Both the position numbers and the translations under genes were made by a program. Below the pieces are notes generated by a model, which worked only from the letters and a program-made list of their open reading frames with translations, searched no databases and had not been told where the DNA came from. Shown here in pieces: positions 1 through 19,041 of a stretch of DNA of 64,000 nucleotides. Positions within the stretch are counted from its first letter, which is position 1. Every line of letters starts with the position of its first letter. This stretch comes from Saccharothrix ecbatanensis (lineage in GTDB: Bacteria > Actinomycetota > Actinomycetes > Mycobacteriales > Pseudonocardiaceae), in the NCBI RefSeq assembly GCF_014205015.1, contig NZ_JACHMO010000001.1, forward strand, positions 5,580,001-5,644,000. The letters run 5' to 3'.

Positions 1-1576
1 GCTTGCCCAGGCGCTTGGCGAACACCTCGCGGATCACGTCGAGCGCCGACGCCTCGGCGTTCTCCGACTCCGCGCGCACGGCGGTCGCGTCGGCCCTGGG
101 TCGCGGCAGCGCGGTCACGTCGACCACACCGCCGCTGCGCGGCAGGTCCGTCACCCACACCACGTCGACCGGCACCAGCACGGCGGGCAGCCGTTGCGCC
201 AGGCCGCCGCGCACGCGGTCGGTGAACACGGCCGCCACACCGGGCGGGTAGACCTCCGCGACCACCGGTTCGGCCGACACCGGGTCCGCGAACCGGAAGT
301 GCGTGGCGGCGGCGAGCGCGGGCGGCAGCAGCGTCACGTCGAACGCGCCGTCCGGGTCGCCGTCCGCCCAGCTCACCCGCGCCAGCCAACCGTGGCGCTC
401 GGCCAGCCGCCACAGCACCTCCGGGTCGACACCGGGGCCGGTCCCGGCGGCACGGCCGGCGGGCGTGAACCCGTGCCGGTCGCGGGCGGCCAGCGCCTCG
501 TCCAGCCGACCGTTGCGCACGGCCCGGTAGCCGAACGGCTCGGAGCCGGCGAGCAGGCGGCGTTCCAGCGCCGAGAGCTGGAGGTCCGCGCCCGGTTCGG
601 GCACGACCCGCTCCGGGGTGTCGGCGCAGTCGACGTGCAGCACGGCGTCGTAGCGGAACAGCGGCATCTCGGTGGTCGACTCGCCGCGCCGCGGCGCTAT
701 CTCGACGCGCGTCACCCGCGGCGCGCGGGCGGGCGCCGCGGCCAGCCACGCCGGGTCGACGCTCAGCTCGCCGTCGTGGTTGCGGTCGTGCCGGATCGCC
801 TCCCGCACGTCGTCCGCCTCGCTGCGCAGCTCGTGCTTCAGGGCGAAGAACGCGTCGGCCACGGCCTCGTTGCGCAGGTCGCCCAGCACGACGTGGCCGC
901 CGGGCCGCACCACGGCGAGCGCGGCGTCCAACGCCTCCGTCAGGTAGTGCAGCGAAGGGAAGTACTGGACGACGGAGTTGAGCACCACGACGTCGTACTC
1001 GCCGTCGGCGACGCGGGTCGCGTCCACCGCGTCCGCTTCCGCCACCACCAGCTTCGTGGTCGCGCCGGCGTGCCGCAGCTCGTCGGCGAGCTGGTCGAGC
1101 ACCGTGATGGCGGACGCGGAGAAGTCCGTCGCCACGTAGGTGTCGATGGTCCCCGACGACACGAGCGGCCGGACCAGCAGACCGGTTCCCGCGCCGATCT
1201 CCAGCACCCGCTTCGGCGCGAGCGCGGCGATGCGGGCGACCGTCGTGTCGACCCACTCCGCCATCTGCGCCGGCGCGATCGGCTTGCCGGTGAAGCTGTC
1301 GTTCCAGCCGGTGGTCGCAGCCGCCGGCGTCAGGTCGTCGCCGATGGACCCGTAGGTCTCGTCGAACACCGCCCGCCACGAGTCGACGGCGGCGGCCCGC
1401 GCCTCGGAGACGTCGGCGGACCGCTCGGGCGCCGCGTACGCCACCAGGCGCCCGTCGACCGCCGTCACCGCCGCCTCGCGCACCAGCGGGTCGGCCAGCA
1501 GCTCCGCGGTCACCTTCGTGGCGTCCACCCGGACGCCCTTCACCACGATCGCGTGGTCCACCCCGCGCTCAGCCAT
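1..1576 (-). CDS. NRPS piece: A-domain C-terminal tail + methyltransferase + start of carrier domain (partial at left edge)
   Basis: I translated the frame from the ATG at 1576 by hand; it stays open to base 1, giving about 525 residues. The first 50 residues look like an A8 region (VVKGVRVDATKV, then LVAYAAP). An S-adenosylmethionine methyltransferase follows (VLEIGAGTGLL near residue 124; VVLNSVVQYFPS further on). A degenerate A9/A10 stretch comes next; its A10 reads SGGVVD where the family has NGK-D, so the catalytic lysine is missing. The last residues, DVIREVFAKRLGK, match the first helix of a carrier domain cut by the window edge. This is the a8-MT-a9 layout of interrupted A domains, but with no adenylation core, so it probably works in trans with the upstream A domain. 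The start overlaps the upstream stop (ATGGCTGA), implying coupled translation. The methyl acceptor (alpha-amine or side chain) is unknown. Confidence 0.8.
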   Translation of the reverse strand, partial: MAERGVDHAIVVKGVRVDATKVTAELLADPLVREAAVTAVDGRLVAYAAPERSADVSEARAAAVDSWRAVFDETYGSIGDDLTPAAATTGWNDSFTGKPIAPAQMAEWVDTTVARIAALAPKRVLEIGAGTGLLVRPLVSSGTIDTYVATDFSASAITVLDQLADELRHAGATTKLVVAEADAVDATRVADGEYDVVVLNSVVQYFPSLHYLTEALDAALAVVRPGGHVVLGDLRNEAVADAFFALKHELRSEADDVREAIRHDRNHDGELSVDPAWLAAAPARAPRVTRVEIAPRRGESTTEMPLFRYDAVLHVDCADTPERVVPEPGADLQLSALERRLLAGSEPFGYRAVRNGRLDEALAARDRHGFTPAGRAAGTGPGVDPEVLWRLAERHGWLARVSWADGDPDGAFDVTLLPPALAAATHFRFADPVSAEPVVAEVYPPGVAAVFTDRVRGGLAQRLPAVLVPVDVVWVTDLPRSGGVVDVTALPRPRADATAVRAESENAEASALDVIREVFAKRLGK

Positions 1577-3806
1577 GCCGGCCCACCGCGTTCGACCGCT
1601 GGTCGATGCGCTCGGCGACCTGCCGGACCACGGCCTCGCGGTCGATCTTCCCGCTCGACGTGAGCGGCAGCTCCGGCAGGACGTGCAGCGACACCGGCAC
1701 GGACACCGCCGGCAGCACCTCGCGCAACGCGTCGAGCAGCGCGGCGACGTCCAGCGGCGGCAGGCCCGGCTCGGCGGTCACGGCCGCGTGCAGGCTGCGG
1801 GTGCCCTCGGACAGCTCCACGACGACGCAGATCGCCTCGGCGACGCCCGGCTGTTCGAGCAGGCACGCGTCGACTTCCAGCAGGTTCACCCGCGTGCCGC
1901 GGATCTTCACGTCGTGGTCGAGCCTGCTCAGGTACTGCACGACGTCCCCGTCGAGCCGCACCAGGTCACCGGTGCGGAAGGCCCGGGTGTGCCCCTGCGG
2001 CGTGGGCGGGATGGTGATGTACCGCCGAGCGTTCAGCTCCGGCTGGTTCAGGTAGCCCAGGGCCAGCGGCGCGCCCGCCACCAGCAGCTCGCCGATCGTG
2101 TTGTCGTCCGGCTCGACCGGGTCGATCAGCAGCTCGCAGCCGGGCAGCGGGCCGCCGATCGGCGGCTGCGACGGCCACTGCGACGGTGGTCCGGTCAGCG
2201 TGTGCGCGGTGACCATCGCCGACTCGCTCTGCCCGTAGTGGTTGTCGAGGCGGCAGTCGGCGAGCCGGGTGAAGAACTCCCGGATCGGCGGCGAGCAGAC
2301 GATCTGCTCCCCGGCCGTGTTGACCTCGCGGAGCGCCAGGTGCGCCAACGACTTCTCCGACGCGGCGGCGACCGACAGCATGTGCAGACCCAGGTACGGC
2401 AGGAACAGCCGCTCGATCCGGTTGTCCGCCAGCCAGTCCAGCAACTCGAACGGGTCGGAGCGCAGCCGCTCGGGCACGATCACGAGCGTCCCACCGCCCG
2501 CCAGCGTGCCCAGGATCTCCTGGAAGCACACGTCGAAGTTGAGCGGCGCGAACTGGGCGGTGCGCGGGTCCGGGCGACGCGAGTGGCCGCGCTGCCACTC
2601 GACCATGTTGTCGACGCAGCTGTGCGGCAGGGCGACGCCCTTGGGCCGGCCCGTGGAGCCGGACGTGTAGATGACGTAGACGGGCAGGTCCGCCGAGCAC
2701 GCGACGACGGGCCACGCCGAGGGGTCCGGCGCGTGGCCGGGGCGCGGCTCGGGGATGGCGACGACGGCCGCGCCGGTCGTGACCTCCGGCGCCGCCCCGA
2801 CGTGCAGCAGCACCTTGGGCGCGCTGTCGGACAGCATGTGCGCCAACCGCCGCGCCGGGTACTCGGAGTCCAGCGGCACGTACGTCGCGCCGACGCTCAG
2901 CACGCCGAGCATCGCGGCGACCACCTCGGCGCTGCGCGGACCGGCGACGGCGACCCGGTCGCCCGCCGCCACGCCGCGGTCGCGCAGCAGGCCGGCGATA
3001 TCGCCCGCCCAGCCGAGCAGTTCCGCGTAGGTCAGCTCCCGCTCGTCGTCCACGACGGCGACCTCGTCCGGGCGCTGCTTCGCGGTGTCCACGAGGGACT
3101 CCAGGAGGCAGGGCGGGTCGGCCGCGCCTCCCCACACCGAGGGCCGTTCCACATCCACCGACGCGGCGGTGCCAAGACCGAACTCGCGCATGATCCTCCC
3201 TACGTCGCGGCGTACCCCCGAGTCGGCGGCCTCGAACCGGGCGATGATCCGGTCCTGCTGCTCTGGGGTCTGGCCCTGGCTGAGCTTGAACATCGCGTCG
3301 ACGTGCTCGACCCGCAGCTGGAACGCGCCGACGGCGCGGCCGATCGAGCGGAAGTAGTCCAAAGAGGACTCGGGGTTCCACCCGACGCCGAAGTCGTTCT
3401 CGTACGCCAGCACGGTGCCGCGCACGACTTCCAGCGTCCCGTCGAGGTCTTCGATACGCCGCAGCGTGCCGACGACGTGCACGGTGACGAAGTTCCACGT
3501 CGGCGCGGCGGGTTCGGTGTGGTAGTCGACCGGGGTGACGTACCCGTGCGGGCCGGCGAAGACGAGCTTCGCCGTCATGTCGTCCTCCAGCCAGCGCCAG
3601 TGCGGGTTGGCCCGGTTCAGGTGGCCGAGCAACGTCGTGCCGACCACGTCACCGCTCTGCGGCGAGCCCGGCGCGAAGATCACCGGCACGTGGGTGGCCT
3701 GCGGAACCCTCGGTCCCGGCGTCACCAGCGTGGCCAGCGGGTGGTTGCGCATGACGAACCGCGTCCACGCGTGTTCCCGGCTCTGGTACTGCTTGGGCAC
3801 GTACAT
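1569..3806 (-). CDS. PaiB-like FMN-binding barrel fused to an NRPS adenylation domain
   Basis: 745 residues. Residues 1 to about 205 resemble the PaiB-type FMN-binding split barrel (MYVPKQYQSREHAW, then HPLATLVT). A complete A domain follows from about residue 230: A3 [12 protein letters not shown]4 FDVCFQE, A5 HYGQSES, A8 KIRGTRVNLLEV and A10 SSGKIDRE. No carrier domain follows. A pocket code read by hand (D V Q L N A H M V) is close to the published proline codes (DVQLIAHVV), so proline or an analogue is the best guess. The A domain likely charges a carrier on another protein; the barrel could redox-modify the loaded residue or be a flavin-binding relic. It lies in the leftward operon, 15 bp after the N-hydroxylase gene. 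The domain calls are firm; substrate and role of the barrel are inferred. Confidence 0.85.
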   Translation of the reverse strand: MYVPKQYQSREHAWTRFVMRNHPLATLVTPGPRVPQATHVPVIFAPGSPQSGDVVGTTLLGHLNRANPHWRWLEDDMTAKLVFAGPHGYVTPVDYHTEPAAPTWNFVTVHVVGTLRRIEDLDGTLEVVRGTVLAYENDFGVGWNPESSLDYFRSIGRAVGAFQLRVEHVDAMFKLSQGQTPEQQDRIIARFEAADSGVRRDVGRIMREFGLGTAASVDVERPSVWGGAADPPCLLESLVDTAKQRPDEVAVVDDERELTYAELLGWAGDIAGLLRDRGVAAGDRVAVAGPRSAEVVAAMLGVLSVGATYVPLDSEYPARRLAHMLSDSAPKVLLHVGAAPEVTTGAAVVAIPEPRPGHAPDPSAWPVVACSADLPVYVIYTSGSTGRPKGVALPHSCVDNMVEWQRGHSRRPDPRTAQFAPLNFDVCFQEILGTLAGGGTLVIVPERLRSDPFELLDWLADNRIERLFLPYLGLHMLSVAAASEKSLAHLALREVNTAGEQIVCSPPIREFFTRLADCRLDNHYGQSESAMVTAHTLTGPPSQWPSQPPIGGPLPGCELLIDPVEPDDNTIGELLVAGAPLALGYLNQPELNARRYITIPPTPQGHTRAFRTGDLVRLDGDVVQYLSRLDHDVKIRGTRVNLLEVDACLLEQPGVAEAICVVVELSEGTRSLHAAVTAEPGLPPLDVAALLDALREVLPAVSVPVSLHVLPELPLTSSGKIDREAVVRQVAERIDQRSNAVGRHG

Positions 3807-3821
3807 CGCACACCTCCTGTG

Positions 3822-5096
3822 TCAGGCGAGCCGGTCGAGGACGGAATGGGTGATCTCGCCGGCGCGGACGGCGGTGGTGGACAGCAAGCCGGCCGAGATG
3901 CCGTGCGTGTGCTCGGAACCGCCGCCGTGGACGTAGATCCCGCACCGGGTGGCGCCCGAGGTCAGCACGCGGTAGTCCCGCTCCAGCAGCAGCCTGCCGT
4001 CCGCGTCGCGCTTGCAGTCGCCGCCGAGGTCGCCGAGCAGCGCCAGCGGGTCGACCGGCCGGTAGCCGGTGGCGAAGACCGCGGCGTCGGCGTCGAGCAC
4101 GTCCACGGCGCCCGTGGGCAGGTGCTCGACCGACAGCCGCACGCCCTGCGCGTGCTCCTCGACGTCACGCAGACGTGCCGCGTTGACGACCCGCAGCCGC
4201 TCCCGCCCGCGCACCTTCTCCTGGTAGTGCCTGCGGAACAGCTCGGTGCTCAGCTCCGCGTCGACCACCGAGTAGTTGGTGTTGGCGTGGTAGCGCAGCA
4301 ACAAGTCCTTCACCCCGGGCGGCGCGGCGTGGAACGTGTCCACCGCCTCCGGGTCGAAGATCCGGTTGGCGAACGGGTTGTCGTCGGCGGAGCTGTAGCC
4401 GTACCGGGAGAACACCGCGCACACCTCGGCGTCGGTGAACTCGCGGTGCAGGAAGTCGACGACCTCGGCGGCGCTCTGACCCGCTCCGATCACGGCGAGC
4501 CGGCGGGGGCGTCGTGCGCGCAGGCCCTCGACGGCGCCGAGCAGCCCGTCGCTGTGCAGCACGCGGTCGGAGGGCACGACACCGGGCGGCAGGTGCGGGG
4601 CCAGGCCCGCGCCGATCACGACGTTGCGGGCGCGGTGGATCCGCACACCCCCGTCGGTGCGCACGGCGACCTCGACGTACTCGTCCGCCTCGCCCACCGC
4701 GACCACGCGCAACCCCTCCACGGTGGCCCCGTAATGCACGGGGACGCGCACCTTGGCCGCCGCCCACTCCAGGTACGCGTGGAACTCCGTGCGGTACGGG
4801 TGCAGCATCTTGCTGTTGATGAAGTCCGTCAGCCGGCCTACCTCGTGCAGGTACGCGACGAAGCTGTAGGTGCTCGCCGGGTTCCGCATGGTCACGAGGT
4901 CCTTCAGGAACGAGACCTGCATCGTGGCGCCGTCGAGCAGCATGTCCCGGTGCCACCCGAACTCCGGCTGCCGCTCGAAGAACGCCACCCGGGACAGGCC
5001 CGCGTCCTCCAGCGCGATCGCCAGCGCCAGGTTCGAGGGGCCGAACCCGCACCCGACGACGTCGAGCACCGGTTCGGTTTCTTCCTTCGTCGTCAC
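3822..5096 (-). CDS. L-ornithine/L-lysine N-monooxygenase (SidA/IucD/PvdA family)
   Basis: 424 residues, GTG start one base after the upstream stop. The FAD site VVGCGFGPSNLALA is at the N-terminus, an NADPH motif GAGQSAAEV in the middle and ATGYRPVDPLALL near the end, in the order and spacing of siderophore-type amine N-hydroxylases. These flavoenzymes hydroxylate the terminal amine of ornithine or lysine, usually to make hydroxamates or N-N/N-O bonds in peptides. Here the gene sits inside the NRPS operon beside a PRMT-like methyltransferase and an arginine oxidase homologue, so ornithine or a guanidine-bearing amino acid is a plausible substrate. The family is clear; which amine is used cannot be read from the sequence. 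No siderophore transporter is visible nearby. Confidence 0.88.
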   Translation of the reverse strand: MTTKEETEPVLDVVGCGFGPSNLALAIALEDAGLSRVAFFERQPEFGWHRDMLLDGATMQVSFLKDLVTMRNPASTYSFVAYLHEVGRLTDFINSKMLHPYRTEFHAYLEWAAAKVRVPVHYGATVEGLRVVAVGEADEYVEVAVRTDGGVRIHRARNVVIGAGLAPHLPPGVVPSDRVLHSDGLLGAVEGLRARRPRRLAVIGAGQSAAEVVDFLHREFTDAEVCAVFSRYGYSSADDNPFANRIFDPEAVDTFHAAPPGVKDLLLRYHANTNYSVVDAELSTELFRRHYQEKVRGRERLRVVNAARLRDVEEHAQGVRLSVEHLPTGAVDVLDADAAVFATGYRPVDPLALLGDLGGDCKRDADGRLLLERDYRVLTSGATRCGIYVHGGGSEHTHGISAGLLSTTAVRAGEITHSVLDRLA

Positions 5097-5097
5097 G

Positions 5098-6219
5098 TCA
5101 ACGTCCCCTGCTGCCGCGTCGCGCGGCCGTCGGCTCGGACTCGAACAGGGCGCGGTGCAGGCGCGAGGCGCGGAACGGCCCGCCCGCGTACCGGGAGTCG
5201 GCGGCCAGCGGCGTACGGCCGCCGTCGGCGCGGACCAGGGCGCCGGTGAACGCGTAGTCGGGGTGGATGTCGTCCGCGACGGTCTCGGCCCGGCACTCCA
5301 GGTCGATCACGTCCCCGTCCGCGAGGTCGAACGCCTCGGCGAACGGCACGTAGACGGGCAGCCAGTTCGTGACGGTGTCGAGGCTGTCCAGCACGGGCTG
5401 CCCCGGCGCGCAGCGCATGTTCAGCCACAGCAGCAGGCCGTCCACGCGGCCCGGTCCGAGCGCGTCGAGCCGGACGGACGGGAAGTCGGCCACGCCCTCG
5501 TCCAGGCGCAGGTCCTCGACCAGGGCGTCGGTGGTGCGCAGCGCGGAGCGGTCCACGTTGCCGACGCAGAACCTCAGGTCGAAGAACCCGCCCGCGGCGT
5601 CCAGCAGCCGTTCCACGTAGTCGACGTACTCGGGCCGGACGCCGTACCGGCCGCCCAGCAGGTCGTCCAGGCACACCGCCGCCGCCCGCGTGCCCACCGC
5701 GGCCGGCACGGTCGCCGCACCGGGCTTCAGGTGCCGGCGGCGCGCGTCGGCGAGCACCGCGTCGATGCCCTCCGCGCCGCCGATGTTGCCGACCAGCTCG
5801 GCGATGCACAGGTCGGCGGGCTCGGGCAGGGACAACGTCGTCGCCTCGCCGCCGAACACCCGGATGTCGTGGGCGGTGGTGCTCGCGAGGTCGGCGGCCC
5901 GTGCGGCGCTGTCCTCGTTGACGTCGGCGGCGAACACGCGTGCCGCGCCCGCCTCGGCTGCGCACAGCGTCCACAGCAGGTCCGGGCCGCACCCCAGTTC
6001 GACCACGGTCGCCCCAGGGGCCTCCTGCGCGATGGCGTCGCGGAAGAGCTTGTTGCGCGGCTCGTCCTCCAGCATCACGTGGTAGAGGTAGTCGTCGTAG
6101 ACGGGGTACTCGCCCACCGACGGCCAGAGGTAGGGCGCGTCGCGGTCGAGGTCGGCGAGCACGCGCACCCTTGTCCGCTCACCGCCGACGGTGACGTTCC
6201 GCCAGTCCTGCCCGCTCAT
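5098..6219 (-). CDS. PRMT-like SAM-dependent methyltransferase, possibly acting on free or tethered arginine
   Basis: 373 residues from the ATG at 6219, which overlaps the upstream stop (ATGA). The SAM motif VVELGCGPDLLWTL is near residue 73. The stretch AELVGNIGGAEG places glutamates at positions 141 and 150, nine apart, the spacing of the double-E loop that holds the guanidinium in protein arginine methyltransferases. A C-terminal beta-rich half of about 200 residues fits the PRMT barrel. A PRMT homologue that methylates free arginine is known from the streptozotocin pathway (SznE). With an MppP-type arginine oxidase and a VioC-type hydroxylase in the same cluster, methylation of an arginine guanidine is the likeliest role. 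It could instead modify another amine. No protein substrate is suggested by the context. Confidence 0.75.
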   Translation of the reverse strand: MSGQDWRNVTVGGERTRVRVLADLDRDAPYLWPSVGEYPVYDDYLYHVMLEDEPRNKLFRDAIAQEAPGATVVELGCGPDLLWTLCAAEAGAARVFAADVNEDSAARAADLASTTAHDIRVFGGEATTLSLPEPADLCIAELVGNIGGAEGIDAVLADARRRHLKPGAATVPAAVGTRAAAVCLDDLLGGRYGVRPEYVDYVERLLDAAGGFFDLRFCVGNVDRSALRTTDALVEDLRLDEGVADFPSVRLDALGPGRVDGLLLWLNMRCAPGQPVLDSLDTVTNWLPVYVPFAEAFDLADGDVIDLECRAETVADDIHPDYAFTGALVRADGGRTPLAADSRYAGGPFRASRLHRALFESEPTAARRGSRGR

Positions 6220-7121
6220 GCGGCCACCCCTTCCACGCCGTGTCGTTCGTCCGCCGCAGCCCGCCACAGGACCGACGGCGGTCCCCACACGTCGACCGCG
6301 CCGTAGGCGGCCCGGTAGACCGCGCCGACCGCGGGGTCGGACGTTCCCGCGGCCCCGTGCAGCTGCACTACGGCGTGCGCGGCCGTGATGGCGGCTTCCA
6401 CCGCGGTCGCCAGCGCGGTGCGCGATAGGTGGCGGTCCACGCCCGCGTCGAGGGCGCAGGCCGCCTCCCACACCTCCACCCTGGCCAGCTCGACGGCGAT
6501 CGCCGCACGGGCCAGGCGGTGTGCCGAGGCCTGCCGCTCGACGAGTGGCCGGCCGCCCAGCAGACGGGTCGCCACGCGGTCCGCCGCCAGCTCCACCGCC
6601 CGCCGCGCCACGCCGACGTGGTACGCCGCGCCGCGAACCCGGTCCCGGTGAAGTGCCGCGTCGACCACGTCGGCCGACACGGGTGAAGTGTCCACTTCGG
6701 ACTCTCCGGTTGCCGGTTCCCACCGCCGGTTCCCGTCCGCCACGTCCACCACGACCTCCGGTCGCGGCCCGTCGTGCGGCGCCGGGCCGAGCGGCACGAC
6801 CCGGCCCGCGTCCACGGCGGGCGTCCGCCGGCGCAGCTCCGCCACGGCAGCCGAGTCCGGCGCCCACAGGTCGAGCACGACGTGCGCGCCCCGGACGAAC
6901 CGGCCGTCGCACAACCGCGCGCCCAGTTCCTCGTGCACCAGGCACAGGTCGGCGTGCCCGAGCCCGAGGCCGCCCTGGTCCGCGGGCAGCGCCAGCTCGA
7001 CCAGCCCCGTGGCGGCGAGCTTCTTCCACACCGCGTGCGGGTCGTCCGGCACGACGTCGGCGAGCTGGTCGCGGACGAGCCCGCGCAGCTCCCGCTGTGC
7101 CGGCCCGAGGGTGATGTCCAT
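6216..7121 (-). CDS. Acyl-CoA dehydrogenase-like protein, short subunit
   Basis: 301 residues, ATG at 7121 sharing one base with the stop of the longer dehydrogenase gene (TGATG). The helical N-terminal domain (ALPADQGGLGLGHADLCLVHEELG) and the C-terminal helical domain (AITAAHAVVQLHGAAGTSDP) are recognisable, but the beta domain is reduced and the protein is about 70-80 residues short of a typical 380-residue enzyme. Next to a near-full-length partner, this resembles heteromeric acyl-CoA dehydrogenases in which one subunit carries a degenerate active site. In an NRPS operon such enzymes usually oxidise an aminoacyl chain on a carrier protein, as in proline-to-pyrrole conversion. The substrate here is unknown. 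The family is secure; the heteromer is inferred from the paired genes. Confidence 0.8.
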   Translation of the reverse strand: MDITLGPAQRELRGLVRDQLADVVPDDPHAVWKKLAATGLVELALPADQGGLGLGHADLCLVHEELGARLCDGRFVRGAHVVLDLWAPDSAAVAELRRRTPAVDAGRVVPLGPAPHDGPRPEVVVDVADGNRRWEPATGESEVDTSPVSADVVDAALHRDRVRGAAYHVGVARRAVELAADRVATRLLGGRPLVERQASAHRLARAAIAVELARVEVWEAACALDAGVDRHLSRTALATAVEAAITAAHAVVQLHGAAGTSDPAVGAVYRAAYGAVDVWGPPSVLWRAAADERHGVEGVAA

Positions 7122-8215
7122 CAGGCGCTCCCGGTGCACTGGTCGACGGCGATCAGGTCCAGCTGCAGTTCGACGGCGCCGCCGGAGATCGACAGCTCGG
7201 GCGCCTCGGCGAGGGCGTGCCGCACGACCCGCAGCCGGTCGCCGTCGGCCCCGCCGGTCAGCTCGGTGGCGGCCCACCGGGCCACGCCCTGCGCCGCCTC
7301 GCCGCAGGCGAGCTTCGAGTAGGCGGAGGCCACCTCGTCCATGTCGAACCCGTCGGCGGTGTTGACCGCGCGGAACGCCAAGGCGCGCGCGTTCGCCACC
7401 GCCCGCTCGTGGCGCAGGAGGTCCACCCGAAGGCGTGCCCGCTCGGCCGGCGGAGCGGCGTCGACCAGCTCCCCGGCCGTGCGCAGCCACCGCTGGGCAC
7501 GGCTGAGGTAGTCGAAACCCGCGCGCTCGAACCCGATCGCCCGGATCAGCAGCGGCCAGCCCTGGTGCTCCGGGCCGATCAGCGCGTCCCGGCCGACGCG
7601 GACCCCGTCCAGCACGACGGTGTAGTACGGCTCACCGGCTTCCCGCCGCACCGGCCGGAGCGCGACGCCCGGCGCGTCGAACGGGACCAGCAGGAAGCTG
7701 ATGCCGTCGTAGCGGTCCCGCCCGGCTCGGGTGCGGACCGAGACCAGCCCGAAGTCCGACCAGTCGGCGTAGAGGTTCCACGCCTTCCGGCCCGTGACGA
7801 CGTAGCCGTCGCCGTCCGGGACGGCGGTGGTCTCGATGGCGGTCAGGTCGCTGCCCGCGTTGGGCTCGGACAGCAGCAGGCTCGCGAACGCCCGGCCGGC
7901 GGCGACGCGCGGCAGCCACCGGCGGCGCTGCTCCTCGGTGCCCGCGGTGAGCAGCGAGCAGCCCACGCCCTGCACCGTCACGAGGTGGACCTCGTCCGGC
8001 AGCCCGGCCAGGCCCATCCGCTCGGCGACCGCGGCGTGGTCGGTCAACCGCAGGCCCCGGCCGCCGTACTCCTCCGGGTAGTGCACGGCCACCAGCCGCC
8101 GATCGCCCAGCAGGGCGAACAGCTCACGCCGCGACGCGCCGGGGCCCGCGTCCGCGAAGACCCGGTCGACCTCGTCGAGCAGCCCGCGGGTGACCTCGTC
8201 CGGGGTGAACCGCAC
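7121..8215 (-). CDS. Acyl-CoA dehydrogenase-like flavoprotein, longer subunit
   Basis: 364 residues. It carries the family landmarks in order: YPEEYGGRGLRLTDHAAVAE in the N-terminal helices, LLLSEPNAGSDLTAIET (flavin/substrate loop), GYVVTGRKAWNLYAD in the beta domain, and a C-terminal helical bundle with DEVASAYSKLACGEAAQ. It is slightly shorter than the usual 380-400 residues. It sits 3 bp downstream of the arginine-oxidase/carrier fusion gene and overlaps the short dehydrogenase gene by one base, so the pair is almost certainly made together. I infer alpha,beta- or C-N desaturation of a carrier-bound amino acid. Fatty-acid use is less likely because no other beta-oxidation gene is close. 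Confidence 0.85.
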   Translation of the reverse strand: MRFTPDEVTRGLLDEVDRVFADAGPGASRRELFALLGDRRLVAVHYPEEYGGRGLRLTDHAAVAERMGLAGLPDEVHLVTVQGVGCSLLTAGTEEQRRRWLPRVAAGRAFASLLLSEPNAGSDLTAIETTAVPDGDGYVVTGRKAWNLYADWSDFGLVSVRTRAGRDRYDGISFLLVPFDAPGVALRPVRREAGEPYYTVVLDGVRVGRDALIGPEHQGWPLLIRAIGFERAGFDYLSRAQRWLRTAGELVDAAPPAERARLRVDLLRHERAVANARALAFRAVNTADGFDMDEVASAYSKLACGEAAQGVARWAATELTGGADGDRLRVVRHALAEAPELSISGGAVELQLDLIAVDQCTGSA

Positions 8216-8218
8216 CGC

Positions 8219-9724: not shown

Positions 9725-11270
9725 GGCCTTTCACGTCGTCAGGGCGGGAGGGGAGGGCCGGCCCGGCGGGCAGCGGCCGGCCGAGGGAGTGCACCGACGC
9801 CGCGAGCGCTCGCCGGTCGACCTTGCCGTGGCCGGTGAGGGGGATCTGGTCCACCTGCGCCCAGCGGGCCGGGATCATGTAGTCGGGCACGCGCTCGGCG
9901 AGCACGGCGTTGAGCTGCGCCGCGGTCGGCGGTGTTCCGGCGACCTCGACGAACGCGGCGAGCCGGGTCCCGGTCGCGGTCTCGTGGGCGACGACCGCGG
10001 CGGCGGCCACCGAGGGGTGCGCCAGCAGGCCGGCTTCCACCTCGCCCAGCTCCACCCGGAAGCCGCGCACCTTCACCTGGGCGTCGGCCCGGCCGCGGAA
10101 GACGAGGTCGCCGCGCTCGTCGACCACGCCGAGGTCGCCGGTGCGGTACATGCGGTCGCCGGGCGCGCCCGTGGGATCAGGCCGGAACCGGTCCGCGGTC
10201 AGCCCCGGCTGGTTGAGGTAGCCGCGGGCCAGGCCCGCGCCGGCGATGTGGATCTCGCCGACCTCGCCGGGTTCCACCTCGTCGAGGTTGTCGTCGAGCA
10301 GGCGCACGCGGACGTTCTCGATCGGCCTGCCGATCGGCACCAGCGGCGCGGGGTCGTCGAGGTCCGCCGGACGGCAGCGGTGCACCGTGCTCCACACCGT
10401 GCCCTCGGTGGGGCCGTACTCGTTGAACAGCGCGTTGTCCGGCGCCGCCGCGAAGTGCCTGCGGGCCAGTTCGGCGGGCAGCTGCTCGCCGGCGAGGACG
10501 GTGCAGCCGACGTCGCGCACGGCGTCGGGGTGGTAGGCCAGCAGGGCCGCGTACTGCGACGGCACGCCGTCCACGTGGGTGGCCCGCTCGCGGACGATCA
10601 GCTCGGCCAGCAGCGCGGGGTCCAGCACCTCGTCCGCCGTCGGCACGACGAGCCTGCCGCCGGTGCCGAGCGTGAAGTAGATGCCGGCCACGGCGGCGTC
10701 GAACGTGAACGGCGCGAGCATCACGTACGAGGCGCACGGCCGGGGGAACACCGAATACCTGGCCAGCGTGGAGTTCACGACCTGCCGGTGCGGGGTGACC
10801 ACGCCCTTGGGCACGCCGGTCGAACCCGAGGTGTAGATGACGTAGGCGACGTTGTCCGGCCCCACCGGCGCCGACACGTCCTCGTCGGTCTCCTCGCCGG
10901 CGGAGACGACCGCCCGGCCCTCCGGGACGCCCGCCAGCGCGTCGGCGGAACCGGCGAACAGCTCGATGCCGGCGTCGGCCACGATGTGGGCACGCCGCTG
11001 CGCGGGGAGGTCGGCCGCGAAGGGCACGTACCCCGCGCCGGACCTCAGCACGCCGAGCGTCGCGGCGAGGGTGTGCGTCGAGCGGTCGGTCGGCACGCCG
11101 ACTAGCGACTCCGGGCCCGCGCCCAGCCGGCGCAGCCGCGCGGCGACGTGGTCGGCCCGGCGGCACAGCTCGCGGTAGGTCACGTCGGCGCCCGCGGTGG
11201 TCACCGCGACCGCGTTCGGCGTGCGCGCCGCCTGCCGGTAGACGAGTTCGTGCAGGATCGCCATTGTCAC
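9702..11270 (-). CDS. Stand-alone NRPS adenylation domain, basic (arginine-like) pocket
   Basis: 522 residues with all core motifs: A3 YTSGSTGVPKG near 145, A4 FDAAVAG near 188, A5 NEYGPTEGTVW, A7 YRTGDLG, A8 [13 protein letters not shown] and A10 GHGKVDRRAL with the catalytic lysine. There is no condensation or carrier domain. The hand-aligned pocket code is D A A D V A E V W; an aspartate at position 278 is shared with arginine-type pockets (DVADVGAID), so a cationic amino acid is likely. The gene is first after the MbtH homologue and overlaps the arginine-oxidase/carrier fusion by 23 bp, so it most plausibly loads that carrier. The code is my alignment and needs confirmation. Confidence 0.88.
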   Translation of the reverse strand: MTMAILHELVYRQAARTPNAVAVTTAGADVTYRELCRRADHVAARLRRLGAGPESLVGVPTDRSTHTLAATLGVLRSGAGYVPFAADLPAQRRAHIVADAGIELFAGSADALAGVPEGRAVVSAGEETDEDVSAPVGPDNVAYVIYTSGSTGVPKGVVTPHRQVVNSTLARYSVFPRPCASYVMLAPFTFDAAVAGIYFTLGTGGRLVVPTADEVLDPALLAELIVRERATHVDGVPSQYAALLAYHPDAVRDVGCTVLAGEQLPAELARRHFAAAPDNALFNEYGPTEGTVWSTVHRCRPADLDDPAPLVPIGRPIENVRVRLLDDNLDEVEPGEVGEIHIAGAGLARGYLNQPGLTADRFRPDPTGAPGDRMYRTGDLGVVDERGDLVFRGRADAQVKVRGFRVELGEVEAGLLAHPSVAAAAVVAHETATGTRLAAFVEVAGTPPTAAQLNAVLAERVPDYMIPARWAQVDQIPLTGHGKVDRRALAASVHSLGRPLPAGPALPSRPDDVKGHDRVELA

Positions 11271-11274
11271 GGCC

Positions 11275-11457
11275 CTATTCGGCGGTTTCCCGGATGCTGC
11301 GCGGTCGCATGTCCGACCACACCCGGTCGACGTGGTCCAAGCACTCCTGGCGACTTCCCGTGAAATCCGCGGAAGTCCAGCCGTCGGGCAGCTGCCGGTC
11401 GGCTCGCCAAATGGAGTACTGCTCTTCTTCGTTGATCAAGACCACGTATTCGCTCAT
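11275..11457 (-). CDS. MbtH-like protein
   Basis: 60 residues. It has the signature order of the family: NEEEQYSIW, then LPDGW, then CLDHVDRVWSDMRPRS. MbtH proteins bind and stabilise NRPS adenylation domains. It is the first gene of the leftward operon, 4 bp ahead of the stand-alone A domain, and is likely the activator for several A domains in this cluster. It is shorter than the usual 65-75 residues at the C-terminus but keeps the tryptophans that contact the A domain. Confidence 0.93.
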   Translation of the reverse strand: MSEYVVLINEEEQYSIWRADRQLPDGWTSADFTGSRQECLDHVDRVWSDMRPRSIRETAE

Positions 11458-11755: not shown

Positions 11756-12754
11756 GTGGTGGAGACGAACTCCGGCGGCGACGGCGCGACGCACGACGCC
11801 GCCCGGTTGCTGCACGAGATCGCGAGTGGGCTGGCGCGGGCCGGCGCGACCTCCGACACGGTGCTCACCGACCACCTGGAACGGGTGCCGGCCGAGCTGT
11901 CCGCCGCGCTGGCGGACGTGGTGGCGCTGCCGGACCGGACCACCGGCTGGTCGGTGGCGAGCGGTCTGCTCGCGGAGTTCGGCGACCCCGGGCCCACCCC
12001 GTTGCACTGGAAGGAAGGCGGCGACGAGGCCACCCGCGCGGTGGACATCGCGCTCGTCCTCGTCGGCTCGTCCCTCGGTCAGGTGTTCGGCTGGGCCGGG
12101 CAGCAGGCCGGGCGCATCGTGCACGACATCGTGCCGAGCGCGGGGTACGAGGACATGCAGGTGGGCGCGAGCAGCACCACCGCGCTGGCCTGGCACACCG
12201 AGGACGCGTTCCACCCGGACCGCCCCGACCTGCTGATGCTGGCGTGCTTCCGCAACCACGACCGCGTCGGCAGCCTCCTGTCGAGCATCCGCCGGGTCGT
12301 GCTCGACGAGCGCGACCTTGTGGTGCTGAGCCGGCCGGACCTGGTGATCGTGCCGGACGACTCCTACCCCGGCGACTGGTCGGGCGGCGACCTGTCCGAG
12401 AACGCCATGGCGACGGTGTGGCGTGCCGACGACGGCCTCTGCCTGCGCTACGACCCGTCGTACACCCGGTTCCTCACCGACGACGCCGAGCTGCGCGCGG
12501 CCTACGACCGGCTCGGCGAGGCGATCGACGCGTCCAGCGAGGAGGTGCCGATCCAGGCGGGCGACATCCTCCTGGTGGACAACGACATCGCGGTGCACGG
12601 GCGGGCCGCCTACCGGGCCCGGTTCGACGGCACGGACCGCTGGCTCAAGCGCGTGCTCGTGCGGCTGGACCGGCCCCGGCCCGCCGAGCAGCGGTCCGGC
12701 GGCTACGACCAGGCCATGGTGCGGCCGACGTTCCGCGGTCCGGTCGCGGGCTAG
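11756..12754 (+). CDS. Fe(II)/2-oxoglutarate amino-acid beta-hydroxylase (VioC/MppO-like)
   Basis: 332 residues, GTG start behind GAAGAGGAG. It belongs to the clavaminate-synthase-like family of VioC, OrfP, AsnO and MppO. The iron ligands are visible as LAWHTEDAFHP (H147, E149) and H281 in DNDIAVHGR. R295 lies 14 residues after H281, the spacing VioC uses to bind 2-oxoglutarate. The length fits the family. VioC, OrfP and MppO hydroxylate arginine or enduracididine at C3, AsnO asparagine. With an MppP-type arginine oxidase across the promoter, an arginine-derived substrate is favoured. It heads the rightward operon, 12 bp before the serine-type NRPS. Family membership is firm; substrate is inferred. 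Confidence 0.87.
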   Translation: MVETNSGGDGATHDAARLLHEIASGLARAGATSDTVLTDHLERVPAELSAALADVVALPDRTTGWSVASGLLAEFGDPGPTPLHWKEGGDEATRAVDIALVLVGSSLGQVFGWAGQQAGRIVHDIVPSAGYEDMQVGASSTTALAWHTEDAFHPDRPDLLMLACFRNHDRVGSLLSSIRRVVLDERDLVVLSRPDLVIVPDDSYPGDWSGGDLSENAMATVWRADDGLCLRYDPSYTRFLTDDAELRAAYDRLGEAIDASSEEVPIQAGDILLVDNDIAVHGRAAYRARFDGTDRWLKRVLVRLDRPRPAEQRSGGYDQAMVRPTFRGPVAG

Positions 12755-12766
12755 GCCGGGGACGCC

Positions 12767-15700
12767 GTGATGACCGACCACACGCCGGGCTGGAACGACA
12801 CCGCGCACGACGTGCCCGCCGTGACGCTGCCGGACCTCTTCGAGGCGCAGGCCGCCCGCACGCCCGACGCGGAGGCGGTGCGCTTCGACGGCGAGGTCGT
12901 CACCTACCTGGAGCTGGACGAGCGCGCCAACCGCCTGGCCCGCCTGCTGGTCGCGCGCGGCGCCGGACCCGGCCGGATCGTCGCGGTCGACCTGCCCCGC
13001 TCGGTGGCGCTCGTCGTCGCGCTGCACGCGGTCCACAAGGCCGGCGCCGCCTACCTTCCGATGGACGGCGCGGACCCCGTCGAGCGGGTCCGGCAGCAGC
13101 TCGTCGACGCCGCCCCGGTGGCCGTGCTGACGACGGTCGCGCAGGCAGCCGGGCGTTTCCCGCCGGACGCGAACGTCGTCGCGGTCGACTCGCCGGGCAC
13201 CGCCGCGGACCTGGACCGGCTGCCCGCCACGAGCCCCGAGCGGTCGGGCGTCACCACGGCCACCCCCGCGTACGTGATCTACACGTCCGGGTCGACCGGG
13301 CGGCCGAAGGGCGTGGTGGTCCAGCACGGCGCGATCGTGAACCGGCTCGTTTGGATGCAGCACCAGTACCCGATCACCGCGGGCGACCGGGTGGTGCAGA
13401 AGACGCCGTGCACGTTCGACGTCTCGGTGTGGGAGTTCTTCTGGCCGTTGGCGGTCGGCGCGACGCTGTGCGTGGCCCGGCCGGGCGGTCACCGCGACCC
13501 CCGGTACCTCGCCGACCTGATCCGCGCCGAGCGGATCACCGTGGCGCACTTCGTGCCGTCGATGCTGGACGTGTTCCTGGACGAGCCGTCCTCCGCCGAC
13601 TGCCCCAGCCTGGAGCTGGTCGTGTGCAGCGGCGAGGCGTTGTCGGCCGAGCTGCGCGACCGGTTCTTCCGGACCTCCTCCGCCCGGCTGGAGAACCTGT
13701 ACGGCCCCACCGAGGCCGCTGTGGACGTCACCTACCACTCCTGCTCCCCCGACGACGCCGAGCCGGTCGTCCCCATCGGGCGGCCGGTGTGGAACACGCG
13801 GGTGCACGTGCTCGACGACCGGATGCGCGAGGCGACCGAGGGCGAGCTGTACCTCGGCGGCGCCCAGCTGGCCCTCGGCTACCTCAACCGCCCCGGCCTG
13901 ACCGCGGAGCGGTTCGTGGCCGACCCGTTCGGCCCGCCGGGCGCACGGCTCTACCGGACCGGAGACCTCGGGCGCAGGCGGCCGGACGGGGCGGTGGAGT
14001 ACGTGGGCCGGGCCGACGACCAGGTCAAGATCCGGGGCATGCGGGTGGAGCTCGGCGAGGTCGAGTCCACGCTCACGGCCCACCCCGCGGTCGCCCGGGC
14101 GGCGGTCTCGGTGCACCGGGACCGGTCGGGCTCGGCGGTTCCCGTCGCGTACGCCGTGCCGGACGGGTCGCGGGCCGGCGCCGTGCGCAACCTCGTCACG
14201 TGGGCCGCGGAGGGTTCCACGCCGGACCTGCCGCTGCAACGCGTCGGCCGTGACGTGGTGATGTTCGGCCGCAGCAGGTCCGAGGCCGAGTTCCTGCACG
14301 AGGAGATCTTCACCAGGCGCGAGTACCTGCGCGGCGGCATCACCCTCCCGCCCGACGCGGTGGTGTTCGACATCGGCGCGCACATCGGGTACTTCGCGCT
14401 CCAACTGTCCCAGGAGTGTCCACAAGGGACGGTCTACTGCTTCGAGCCGATCCCCGAGCTGTTCGCCACCCTGTCCGCGAACTGCGCGCTGCACGACGTC
14501 GACGCCCGGTTGTTCAACTGCGGCATCGCCGACCGGGCCGGCACGGACGCGTTCACCTACTACCCCGAGCTGTCGATCATGTCCGGCCGGTTCGCCGAGG
14601 AGGCGGCCGACCGCGCGGTCGTGGAGACGTACCTGCGCAACGGGTTCGGCGCCGAAGGAGGCGCCGGGGCGGGCCCTCAGGTTGGCTCCGAGGTTGGCTC
14701 CGAGGTTGGCACGATCGCCGCGCCCGACCTGGCCGACCTGCTGACCGACCGGCTGCGCGCCACGCGCGTGACCTGCGAGCTGCGCACGGTCTCGGACGTC
14801 ATCGACGAGCACGGCGTGGAGCGCGTGGACCTGCTGAAGGTCGACGCCGAGCGGAGCGAGCTGGAGGTGCTGCGCGGCGTCCGCGACGAGCACTGGCCGC
14901 GCGTGGCACAGGTCGTCGCCGAGGTGCACGACGAGAACGGTCGGCTCGACGCGGTGCTGGACCTGTTGCGGCGGCACGGCTTCACCGTCGCCGTCGACCT
15001 GTCCGACCCGCTGCGCGGCACCGGTCTGGTCAACGTGTTCGCGCGCCGACCGGACGCCCCCACCTCGGCCCCGACCGCGCGGGAGCGGACGTGGGCAGTG
15101 CCCGAAGCGCTGGTCGAAGACCTCCTCGACCACCTGCGCGACCGGCTGCCGGAGCACATGGTCCCCGCGTCCGTCACGCTGCTCGACCGGCTGCCGCTGA
15201 CGCCCAGCGGCAAGCTCGACCGGCGCGCCCTGCCCAAGCCCCGCGCCACCACGTCGGCGGGCCGCGCCCCGGACGGCGTCCGCGAGCACGTCCTGTGCGA
15301 GTTCTTCGCCGACGCGCTCGGGCTGCCGTCCGTGTCGCCGGACGACAACCTCCTGCGCCTGGGCGCGCACTCGTTGCTGATGGCCAAGCTGGCCGCGCGC
15401 ATCCGGTCCGCGCTCGGCGGCGCGGTGGTCCTGAGCGACGTGCTGCGCGAGTCCACCGTGGCCGGTCTGGTCCGGCTCGCCGGCGCGTCGGACGGCGGCG
15501 CCTACGAGCCGGTGCTGGCCTTGCGGCTGCACGGGAAGCTGCCGCCGCTGTTCGCCGTCCACGGTGCGGACGGGCTCGGCCGGCACTTCGCCGCGTCGCT
15601 CGACCACCTCGAACCCGGCCGGCCGGTCTACGCGTTGCAGGCGCGCGGCCTGAACGGCGACGGCCCGGTCGCGTCGTCGCTGCGCGAGGCGGCGGCCGAG

Positions 15701-16177
15701 TACGTCGCACGGGTCCGGGCGATCCAGCGACGCGGCCCGTACCACCTGGCCGGCACGTCGACCGGGGCCGTCATCGCCCGGGAGATGGCCGCGTCGCTGC
15801 GGGCCGACGGGCACGAGGTGGTGCTGGTTCCCGTGGACGGGGCGCCCGGCGGCGCCAACCCGACCGCCTCGCTGCTCGACGCGCGGGCGACCTCGATGGG
15901 CGCCGACCGCGCCGCCGCCGTCGCCGAGATCACCCGGCGGTTCGCGGACCTCCTCCGCGACCACAACGCCGACCACGGCCACACCGCTGACCAAACCCAC
16001 ACCGGCCACCACAGCCACACCGGCCACCACAGCCACACCGGCGACCACACCGACACCGCCGGCGAGCCGCACCGCACGCGGGGCGAGCCGCACCGCACGC
16101 GGGGCGACCACCTCGTGCCCGTCACCGCCCGACCCGCCGACGACCGCGCCCCGACCGCTCCGGAGAGCCTGACGTGA
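12767..16177 (+). CDS. NRPS module: serine-type A domain with FkbM methyltransferase insert, carrier, thioesterase
   Basis: 1136 residues. It opens with WNDTAH, the usual linker between condensation and A domains, but has no condensation domain. The A domain has A3 [12 protein letters not shown]4 [12 protein letters not shown]5 [10 protein letters not shown] and a hand-read code D V W H V S L V D, matching serine. After A8 ([13 protein letters not shown]) an FkbM-family methyltransferase is inserted at about 480-755 ([28 protein letters not shown]). A10 [12 protein letters not shown] follows, then a carrier at 840-910 with LGAHSLL in place of LGGHSLL, then an alpha/beta thioesterase (GTSTG near residue 997). 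The thioesterase C-terminus is a histidine-rich repeat (see 15998-16109). O-methylation of loaded serine is the likely methyltransferase role, by analogy with other FkbM/A-domain fusions. Confidence 0.9.
15998..16109 (+). repeat. In-frame tandem repeats in the thioesterase tail
   Basis: An 18-bp unit (cacaccggccaccacagc) is repeated at 15998-16015 and 16016-16033 with a partial third copy. Two exact 21-bp units follow at 16061-16081 and 16082-16102, encoding GEPHRTR twice. Together they code for a His/Thr/Gly-rich stretch just before GDH at the C-terminus of the thioesterase. The frame is kept throughout. Confidence 0.9.
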
Positions 16178-18471
16178 CCGCTTCACCGCAGACCGCCGTC
16201 CTCCCCGACGAGAGCTGGAACGACACCGCCCGCGAGTTCCGCTCGGACGCCCTGGTGCACCAGCTGGTCGCCGAGGCCGCCGAGCGGCACGGCGACCGGC
16301 CCGCGCTGGTGACCGCCGACGCGACGGTGTCGCACCGCGAGCTCGACGCCGCGTCGAACCGGCTCGCCCGGCACCTGAAGGCCTCCGGCGTCCCGGAGCA
16401 GGCCTACGTCGCCGTGCTGGGCGACCACCGGCCGGCGACCGTCACCGCGCTGCTCGCCGTGGTGAAGGCGGGGGCGGCGTACGTCCCGCTCGACCCGAGG
16501 TGGCCCGCCGAACGCCTGGTCACGCTGCTGTCGTCGCTGAACGTGCGGTACCTGCTGGTGGACCGGGCGCACTACCCGGTGGCCGAGCGCATCCGGTGGT
16601 CCGTGCCCGGCCTGCGGCACGTGGTGTGCTTCGACGAGCCGGCCGAGCGGCCGTGGGCCGACCGCCTCGACACCGACGTGCTCGGCGAGATGTGGGACGT
16701 GGTCGCGGGCAGCGACGACGAGCTGGTGGCCGCGGGCTTCAACCGCGGCGACTCCGCCGAGAGCTACACCGAGGACGACGTCCGGGCGTACGCAAGACAC
16801 GTGGCCGGTCTCGTCACCGACGCCCTCGGGCCGTCCGGCGGCGTGCTGGAGATCGGGTGCGGCACCGGTCTCATCCTGCGGGAGCTGGCGCCGCTCGTCG
16901 CGCACTACACCGGCGTCGACCCGTCCCCCGTGGCGATCGGCAAGGCCGGCGCGCGGCACCCCGGCGCGCACCTGGCCGTCGGCTTCGCGCATGACGTCGC
17001 GCGCCACACCCGCGGGCGGTACGACGTGGCGGTCCTCGCCAGCACCGTGCAGTTCTTCCCGGGGCTGGACTACCTGGTCGACGTGCTGGACGCGGTGGCG
17101 GACGTGCTCGGCGAGGGCGGGACCGTCGTGCTCGCCGACCTCATCGACCCCGATCACGAGGAGCACCGCGGCCTGCGCGTGCCCCCGTCGTTCTTCGCCT
17201 GGCTTGCCGACCGCGGTGACCGCTTCGCCTCCGTCGACGTCCGGCGGCGCGACGGCGGGTTCCGCGGCGAGCTGGCCCACCGCTACGACGTGCTGCTCCG
17301 GGTGGGCGGTCCGGGTCCGATCGCGCCGGTGACCACGGCCTGGCACGTCGACCGCCTGCCCGCCGACCCGGTGGCCGCGGGCATCGACTCCGGCGCACTG
17401 GCCTACGCGATCTTCACGTCCGGTTCGACGGGGCTGCCCAAGGCGGTCGCCGTGCGCCACCGCAGCGTGGTGAACCTGATCGACTGGGTGAACCGCACGT
17501 ACGAGGTGACGTCGGCCGACCAACTGCTCATGGTCACGTCGTTCTCGTTCGACCTCTCGGTGTACGACGTGTTCGGCATCCTGGCCGCGGGCGGGTCGAT
17601 CCGGCTCGTGGAGGACCGCCTGATCGCCGACCCCGACCACCTGGCCGACATCCTGGAGGTCGAGCCCATCACGTTCTGGGACTCCGCGCCCGCGGCGATG
17701 TCGGTGGTCCTGTCGTTCCTCGAGCTGCGAAAGGGCGCGGCGTCCCGTCCGGTGCGGCTGGTCTTCCTGAGCGGCGACTGGGTGCCGCTGACGATGCCGG
17801 ACCGGCTGCGCGCGCAGTTCCCCTCGGCGCTGGTGGTGGCGCTGGGCGGTGCGACCGAGTGCACGGTGTGGTCCAACCACTTCCCGGTCACGACCGTGGA
17901 CCCCGACTGGCCCAGCGTCCCGTACGGCCGGCCGATGCAGAACGCCCGGTACTACGTGCTGGACGAGCAGATGCGCACGTGCCCCGTCGGCGTGGCGGGC
18001 GACCTGTACATCGCGGGCGAGTGCGTGGCCGCGCGGTACGAGGGCGACCCGGAGCTGACGGCGCGGAAGTTCCTGCCCGACGTGGTCCGCCCCGGCGAGG
18101 ATCGGATGTACCGCACCGGCGACCGCGCCTGCTGGCTGCCCGACGGGACGATGCGGTTCCTCGGCCGGGTGGACGATCAGGTGAAGGTGCGGGGCTACCG
18201 GATCGAGCTGGGCGAGGTGCAGGCGGCGCTCAACCGGTGCGAGGCGATGGTCGAGGAGTCGGCGGTGGTGGCCGCGTCGGGCGCGCACGGGCCGGAGATC
18301 GCGGCCTTCTACGTGCCGCGTGGCGGCACGGCGCCGGACGACGTGCGGGCCGAGCTGGCGAGGTCGCTGCCGGAGTACATGATCCCCGCGCGCCTGGTCG
18401 CGGTGGACGAGCTGCCGGTGTCCGCGATGGGCAAGGTCGACCGGAGGAAGCTCGCGGAGATGCTGGGCTGA
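16174..18471 (+). CDS. Stand-alone A domain interrupted between A2 and A3 by a methyltransferase
   Basis: 765 residues; GTG start overlaps the previous stop (GTGA). It begins with WNDTAR, the condensation/A linker without the condensation domain. The A2 region [15 protein letters not shown] is followed by a SAM methyltransferase at about 172-386 ([26 protein letters not shown]). The A domain then resumes with A3 [13 protein letters not shown]4 [21 protein letters not shown]7 YRTGD, A8 [13 protein letters not shown] and A10 [11 protein letters not shown]. It lacks a carrier, so it must load one in trans. The hand-read code D L Y D F S L V W resembles cysteine codes (DLYNLSLIW) except aspartate at 278; GGATE instead of GPTE is also cysteine-like. 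A2-A3 insertion matches TioN-type enzymes, which methylate the side chain. Substrate uncertain. Confidence 0.88.
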
Positions 18472-18719: not shown

Positions 18720-19041
18720 GTGCTCGGTATCTCGGGAAACCCGTTCGCGGCGATTCGGCCACCTGTACGCCTCACAGCCGCAGCTCGCCGGCGCCAACCG
18801 GTCCGGCCCTTGCCCTGTCACCCAGAGGCGCCCCGACGGTCGGCTGTGCGGTGGACCGGTCCGGAAGACCTGATCCGCGTGCCGGCGATGACCGTGTGTG
18901 CCGGCGTTCACCCGACACCTCTGCCCGGCACCACCTGTCCAGGTGGTGCCGGGCAGACCGGCCGGCCGGATCCCTGTAGTGCGACCACTCTGCGTCCAAA
19001 GGACGCCGGTGGCGGTGTCCTGTGACGCGCGGAGGGGCAGA

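Follow-up and report, generated by a model that had tools for sequence, protein, structure and literature searches.

A nonribosomal peptide synthetase cluster of Saccharothrix ecbatanensis that combines a carrier-fused MppP-type domain with a putative piperazate-type block

Which residues are made and joined by a nonribosomal peptide synthetase (NRPS) cluster in which enzymes of two different amino acid chemistries stand together? The question is raised by a 64,000-nucleotide stretch of the Saccharothrix ecbatanensis genome (the window; bases 5,580,001-5,644,000 of a 9,689,237-base contig), the left edge of which cuts an NRPS cluster of ~33 kb, 14.5 kb of it lying left of the window. A preliminary description of the part inside the window had proposed a system devoted to arginine bound to a carrier protein. 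The genes expected for arginine chemistry were found, together with a block resembling those that make piperazate. On this evidence it was judged an even call that the locus is one NRPS cluster whose product would be a peptide of about six residues, built from a modified arginine and a piperazate-type residue. Comparisons were made with genome samples of the genus (25), the family (297) and the phylum (396), with genome contigs and with plasmid DNA, and published work is cited from excerpts of the papers concerned.

The observation on which the arginine side rests is a gene that fuses a pyridoxal 5'-phosphate (PLP) domain of the MppP type to a C-terminal peptidyl carrier protein (PCP) domain. 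The PLP domain matched the NCBIfam model TIGR04462 (E 1.3e-52 over residues 101-383), the carrier matched PP-binding (E 4.3e-13), and the RohP (6c3a) and SwMppP (5dj1) chains aligned to the PLP domain with E ~1e-65. An alignment-based search of genome contigs found 258 relatives, of which the best 80 were used, together with 19 family loci, as a set of 99; a single-sequence search of the genome contigs with the MppP-PCP protein gave no relative. Identity to ten relatives was 37-40%. Of the 55 positions conserved in at least 95% of the 99 relatives, 53 were unchanged in the window protein, the exceptions being M53 and F221. H44, D233 and K236 were identical in all 99 and aligned, against 5dj1, with His29 and Asp218 of MppP (numbering of the SwMppP chain) and with a lysine three positions after Asp218, presumably the PLP lysine. 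The roles of His29 and Asp218 were taken from PMC6411801.

The fusion itself was not met elsewhere in the material searched. No C-terminal PCP was found on any of the 99 relatives, the N-terminal side of which was not looked at; one of the best 80 carried a 57-residue tail that, by eye, is not a PCP. MppP-like matches were present in 6 of the genus genomes, 36 of the family genomes and 2 of the phylum genomes (own genome included each time). None of the other family matches listed extends past query residue 414, and all stop short of the carrier serine, as does the remaining phylum match. Relatives of the MppP-PCP protein found in the genome contigs and in the samples of genus, family and phylum did not exceed 46% identity. 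The top-ranked relatives of the MppP domain (L031, L032 and L033; 42-46% identity) came from Saccharibacteria, Daviesbacteria and Gottesmanbacteria metagenome bins and not from actinomycetes. Among the plasmid records listed for a DNA search (20 of 41), there was only short NRPS or hydroxylase similarity, and a tblastn search of plasmids gave 12 records, ten with distant PLP-type matches and two matching the carrier region only.

Directly upstream lies the gene for a stand-alone adenylation (A) domain, A1, which has no carrier of its own. As called, the two genes overlap by 23 bp, and A1 would for this reason be the natural loader of the MppP-fused PCP; the overlap is no evidence for PLP chemistry on a thioester. 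A single alignment, with the Ser-like A6 as anchor, supplied the specificity codes. The published Arg consensus (Asp235, Ala/Val236, Glu239, Asp278, Ile/Val/Leu299, Gly301, Ala322, Val/Ile330, Thr/Asp331, Lys517; PMC12283262) was matched at 8 of 10 positions by A3 and at 6 of 10 by A1, counting the A10 lysine, which both have; A1 also matched 6 of 10 positions of the enduracididine code DAEDVAAMIK from the same source. Judged by these codes, the pocket of A1 is moderately Arg-like, and A3, encoded left of the window, fits arginine better.

The second block consists of a flavin-dependent N-hydroxylase and a gene in which a piperazate synthase (PZS)-family domain is fused to A2. The 215 N-terminal residues of the latter matched SbPZS best (9qlk, E 2.1e-62), followed by LnzB, KtzT and PipS, with NohD and PaiB lower. 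The equivalents of the haem ligand His61 and of Thr102, Tyr150 and Lys173 were identical (SbPZS numbering, counted from the alignment). NohD was considered as the identity of this domain and set aside, its score being below those of the four piperazate synthases; NohD, too, has a Glu after the KLSQ motif. Neighbouring genes for an N-hydroxylase (59-65%), an unfused PZS (~52%) and an A domain (68-70%) occur in 4 of the 24 other members of the genus, so that the window gene looks like a fusion within a genus cassette. In the 40 kb around each of these four cassettes no MppP, PRMT or acyl-CoA dehydrogenase (ACAD) relative was reported. A PZS-family match was also present in a fifth genus mate (G184). 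In the family sample 28 genomes had such a match, own included; the other 27 lay in stop-to-stop frames of 205-403 amino acids, none of which is long enough for an A domain. The unfused cassette of the four genus mates (L126, L128, L130 and L132, with neighbours L127, L129, L131 and L133) is itself carried in an NRPS cluster. As a member of this cassette the N-hydroxylase most likely serves a piperazate-type residue and not arginine, and the PZS-A2 fusion, if correctly read, would couple the making of the cyclic residue to its activation.

A further gene encodes a relative of protein arginine methyltransferases (PRMT), which gave weak but clear matches to PRMT structures, best to PRMT7. Both Glu residues of its double-E loop aligned ungapped to 3r0q; in the 4m36 alignment a one-residue gap offsets the second. 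Among the 80 MppP-type loci from genome contigs, 18 had a PRMT-like gene within ~4 kb downstream (E up to 1e-5). The genes in between were identified for one of the 18, L089, where they encode a DHDPS-family and a haem-oxygenase-like protein, a layout that we take to fit that of azomycin. Both the MppP-type and the PRMT-like gene are also present in L072, a locus of S. eurocidicus ATCC 27428, in which the rohPQRST azomycin cluster was described (PMC12713392). The MppP/PRMT pairing is therefore not special to the window. The PRMT-like open reading frame (ORF) of L072 (13613-14686) is fifth in a packed row by reading of the ORF list and, from this position, would be rohT. Neither a DHDPS-type nor a haem-oxygenase-like domain was found among the window cluster genes scanned, and an azomycin route was rejected for want of these partner enzymes. 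In the family sample 36 genomes, own included, had a PRMT-like match, and the longer-matching relatives (35-40% identical) lay beside NRPS genes in 3 of 10 regions looked at. One family member has two tandem PRMT-like genes (L160:8192-10639) near NRPS and ketosynthase genes.

The VioC-like protein was matched by the GntD (E 1.5e-70) and VioC (E 3.2e-61) models, both below cut-off. The HxE motif and later His of the iron triad are present and the Asp268 equivalent is kept; the Asp270 equivalent is Ser, which is nearer to NapI (Ala). These two guanidinium-binding residues are described in PMC10884159, according to which VioC, OrfP and NapI take free arginine and NapI desaturates it. With the second guanidinium Asp replaced in a NapI-like way, both hydroxylation and desaturation are possible for the window enzyme. 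An MppP-like gene adjoined a VioC-like gene in 2 of the 80 loci (L096 and L099). As for the two ACADs, the best NCBIfam model for the longer, termed alpha, was the pimeloyl-CoA dehydrogenase large subunit (E 1.7e-31); the shorter, beta, had no middle-domain match and scored below cut-off with the IpdE2 model (E 1.2e-6). Their adjacency suggests that they perhaps form one alpha/beta pair. The two aligned too poorly for a comparison of active sites, and the notion of a beta subunit without the catalytic Glu was given up. ACAD-alpha-like matches were present in 20 of the family genomes, own included, and all three examined of the 19 others lay beside NRPS genes.

The remaining assembly line is made up of a 2857-residue NRPS with the domains C-PCP-C-A3-PCP-C-A*-MT (C, condensation; MT, methyltransferase), a C-A5-PCP protein and the proteins containing A6 and A7. 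A* has lost core motif A3 and gave no sensible code. Alignment of the A-remnant/MT/PCP protein with the A*-MT end of the 2857-residue NRPS, encoded by the next gene, gave 41% identity in 487 positions, and the two MT domains were 45-47% identical. The codes of A3 and A5 are DADDIGFVD and DMFQLGIVW (for the others see Table 1); we take the A5 code to be Gly/Ala-like, the A2 code to resemble Pro codes and codes of the DLYN type to mean Cys. The code of A6 is one residue off published Ser codes and that of A7 is close to the DLYN type (PMC12283262). No C domain match was obtained in a Pfam scan of the A6 protein. A code could be read for six A domains; as the cluster also has six PCPs, one A domain per PCP is possible. 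Two repeats, one of 18 bp in tandem (5.6 copies) and one of 21 bp (2.2 copies), lie where the A6 gene encodes the end with the thioesterase (15961-16107); they give a His/Thr-rich stretch that may interrupt the thioesterase domain.

A scheme can be proposed from the observed domains, fusions, gene order, codes and conserved residues, in which the substrates, the order of steps, the pairing of A domains with PCPs and the oxidation on the carrier are predicted. A1, helped by the MbtH-like protein, would activate L-arginine or an arginine derivative and load it onto the PCP of the MppP-type protein, where the PLP- and O2-dependent domain would oxidize the side chain. The two ACADs may act as in prolyl-PCP chemistry and desaturate the thioester; the PRMT-like enzyme would N-methylate a guanidine and the VioC/NapI-type oxygenase would hydroxylate or desaturate arginine. 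In parallel, the N-hydroxylase and the fused PZS-family domain would convert ornithine (or lysine) to a cyclic residue, to be activated by A2 and loaded onto the MT-PCP protein. The upstream NRPS (the 2857-residue protein, then C-A5-PCP) would add a basic, probably arginine-type, residue and a small one; A6 would bring Ser and A7 (methyl)Cys, and the thioesterase would release the peptide. A more specific form of this scheme has the PLP oxidase acting in cis on the arginyl thioester of its own PCP, with flavin-dependent desaturation and guanidine N-methylation following there, and the PZS-A2 protein, which lacks the usual acidic residue, forming an N-N bonded or dehydrated ring coupled to its activation. 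This is regarded as unlikely. Were the PLP oxidase to edit a carrier-bound residue, the cluster would offer a way of loading arginine and editing it on the spot, as well as a natural PLP-carrier didomain for study.

Several observations weigh against the six-residue scheme. The TIGR04462 score of the PLP domain is 179.1 bits against an equivalog cut-off of 450, so that the domain is a relative of MppP and not MppP itself; likewise the VioC model score is 207.2 against 418.6. R364, which we take to be the arginine that usually holds the free carboxylate in fold-type I enzymes, is kept in the window domain as in 98 of the 99 relatives, and the domain may therefore act on free arginine. All ACAD models were below cut-off, and that of RedW, a prolyl-PCP dehydrogenase, came third (E 1.4e-27) and not best. 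The PZS-family domain reads KLSQG, without the acidic residue that follows this motif as Asp177 in SbPZS and as Glu in KtzT, PipS and LnzB. This position is reported to contact the substrate in SbPZS (PMC13274692, from which the SbPZS residue roles are taken). An E or D was found there in all 17 relatives in which the motif was found (19 of the 27 family-genome relatives were fetched; the other 2 gave no KLSQ match). On account of the Gly, the domain is filed as PZS-family and not as a bona fide piperazate synthase. The N-hydroxylase scored higher to the lysine hydroxylase MbtG (9nns, E 1.8e-146, 491 bits) than to KtzI (4tlx, E 1.2e-113, 383 bits), and lysine is thus a possible substrate; with N6-hydroxylysine PipS gave dehydration only (PMC11705231). 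The A2 code differs from both diperamycin piperazate codes, DVFSVASY and DVFTVAAY (PMC10888640), and A1 and A3 were compared with the Arg consensus, not systematically with Lys or Orn codes. Finally, six carriers call for five bonds, for which the cluster has four C domains, and one of these, in C-A5-PCP, has HHxxxDA in place of HHxxxDG.

The retained R364 and the other conserved family positions speak for a tentative alternative, in which the MppP-type domain, like MppP, RohP and Ind4, oxidizes L-arginine as the free amino acid and the PCP merely keeps the product near A1, which then loads the finished residue (channelling). Characterized O2-using PLP arginine oxidases take L-arginine itself (PMC7497351), as VioC, OrfP and NapI take the free amino acid. 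Against this alternative stands the missing C-terminal PCP on the 99 relatives, which speaks for a specific link between loading and oxidation that seems to have evolved here. Moreover, Asp235 in an A domain goes with activation of an alpha-amino acid, and A1, which keeps this residue, should activate one. The products named for MppP and RohP, in contrast, are keto acids (PMC7497351).

A known free amino acid route to an enduracididine- or capreomycidine-type residue, which would make the cluster an ordinary member of that group, is very unlikely and was rejected. The side-by-side MppP-like and VioC-like genes of L096 and L099 and the partial fit of A1 to the enduracididine code are in its favour; however, among the cluster genes scanned there was no MppR-type (acetoacetate decarboxylase-like) domain and no second, MppQ-like aminotransferase domain, which we take to be the partners in that pathway, and to our knowledge PRMT-like and ACAD genes form no part of it. 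That the product is already published, its gene cluster merely not recognized, appears highly improbable given the 46% identity ceiling found for relatives of the MppP-PCP gene, and in the open-licence PubMed Central literature, judged mostly by titles and abstracts, nothing was found that fits an MppP with a carrier protein or a piperazate synthase-adenylation fusion.

Set against these results, the preliminary description was right about the carrier-fused MppP-type domain, the double-E PRMT-like enzyme, the VioC-type oxygenase and an NRPS cluster without a recognized product family. Its A domain with an Arg-like pocket is there, with the moderate fit given above. The N-hydroxylase and the two ACADs do share a gene row, but the VioC-like gene, being on the plus strand, lies outside that operon. 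Arginine could be loaded through the MppP-PCP gene and its overlapping A gene, yet an all-arginine chemistry does not account for the piperazate-type block, to which the N-hydroxylase most likely belongs. Formation of the modified arginine on a protein, as proposed there, is possible. The MbtH-like gene, the PZS-family domain, A3 and the methyltransferase-interrupted A domains of Ser-like (A6) and Cys-like (A7) code had not been mentioned. Most of the pairings, taken singly, were met at other loci or are in print: MppP near a PRMT-like or a VioC-like gene, NRPS genes accompanied by an ACAD or a PRMT-like gene, and an N-hydroxylase with PZS. Within the material searched, what is new is the MppP-PCP and PZS-A2 fusions, the Gly in the PZS-family domain and the presence of all these features in one predicted assembly line.

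Table 1. Features of the cluster inside the window (positions in window coordinates; nt, nucleotide positions; aa, amino acids)
Feature	Position	Strand	Evidence
A-domain remnant, methyltransferase domain and PCP, 576 aa	1..1576, continuing ~154 bp left of the edge	-	Pfam Methyltransf_23/12 and PP-binding on L009:17846-19576
PZS-family domain (residues 1-215, nt 3162-3806) fused to A2	1569..3806	-	FMN_bind_2 and AMP-binding; code DVQFNAHMV
Flavin lysine/ornithine N-hydroxylase	3822..5096	-	Lys_Orn_oxgnase, E 1.5e-102
PRMT-like methyltransferase, double-E loop	5098..6219	-	PRMT7 4m36, E 7.4e-12
Acyl-CoA dehydrogenase, short, possible beta subunit	6216..7121	-	Acyl-CoA_dh_N, _1 and _2 matches
Acyl-CoA dehydrogenase, possible alpha subunit	7121..8215	-	Pfam N, middle and C domains
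MppP-type PLP domain (residues 1-392, nt 8549-9724) and PCP with GGDS motif (nt 8219-8548)	8219..9724	-	TIGR04462, PP-binding
Stand-alone A domain A1	9702..11270	-	AMP-binding, E 3.6e-77; code DAADVAEVW
MbtH-like protein, 60 aa, first gene of the minus-strand row	11275..11457	-	Named by sequence resemblance
VioC/OrfP/NapI-type Fe(II)/2-oxoglutarate oxygenase	11756..12754	+	GntD and VioC models; 4m23, E 4.9e-49
A6 with FkbM methyltransferase (nt 14369-14986) between a8 and a9, PCP, thioesterase	12767..16177	+	Pfam; code DVWHVSLVD
Stand-alone A7 with methyltransferase (nt 16792-17181) between a2 and a3	16174..18471	+	Pfam; code DLYDFSLVW

The coding part of the cluster extends from about -14,543 to 18,471 in window coordinates. 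The minus-strand row runs, from upstream to downstream, through the genes for the MbtH-like protein, A1, MppP-PCP, ACAD alpha, ACAD beta, the PRMT-like enzyme, the N-hydroxylase, PZS-A2, the A-remnant/MT/PCP protein, the 2857-residue NRPS, C-A5-PCP, an MFS transporter and a type II thioesterase (L009 3457-4164), which forms the left end; the VioC-like, A6 and A7 genes are on the plus strand. Beyond the left end lies a gene named, by eye, as a LysR-type regulator (L009 2505-3449). The MbtH-like protein was 57-58% identical to ORF segments of two genus-mate regions. Adjoining the cluster on the other side, 18898-19971 encodes an AAA_33/zeta-toxin-like kinase domain with a stretch that, by eye, resembles a signal peptide.

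Compared with known systems, the MppP-type domain shares its family positions with MppP, RohP and Ind4 and differs in the PCP fusion, the overlapping A gene and a score below the TIGR04462 cut-off. MppP-type and PRMT-like genes are common to the azomycin rohPQRST cluster and the window cluster, which differs in having an NRPS. With prolyl-PCP dehydrogenase systems (A, PCP and ACAD) it has in common a stand-alone A domain, a carrier and an ACAD in one gene row; here, however, there are two ACAD genes, the carrier is fused to a PLP enzyme and the A1 code is not Pro-like. The methyltransferases of A7 and A6, whose insertion points were read from the sequence, stand at a2-a3 and a8-a9, the positions that we take to be those of KtzH/TioN and TioS, respectively, a likeness of insertion point and not of compared sequence; A6 differs in carrying an FkbM-type domain, and A7 in being stand-alone with a Cys-like code. 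An N-hydroxylase with a PZS-family domain is shared with the KtzI-KtzT cassettes and with the published fusions of an N-monooxygenase (NMO) to PZS (PMC11705231), from which the window differs in the fusion of PZS to an A domain, the Gly after KLSQ and the Pro-like A code.

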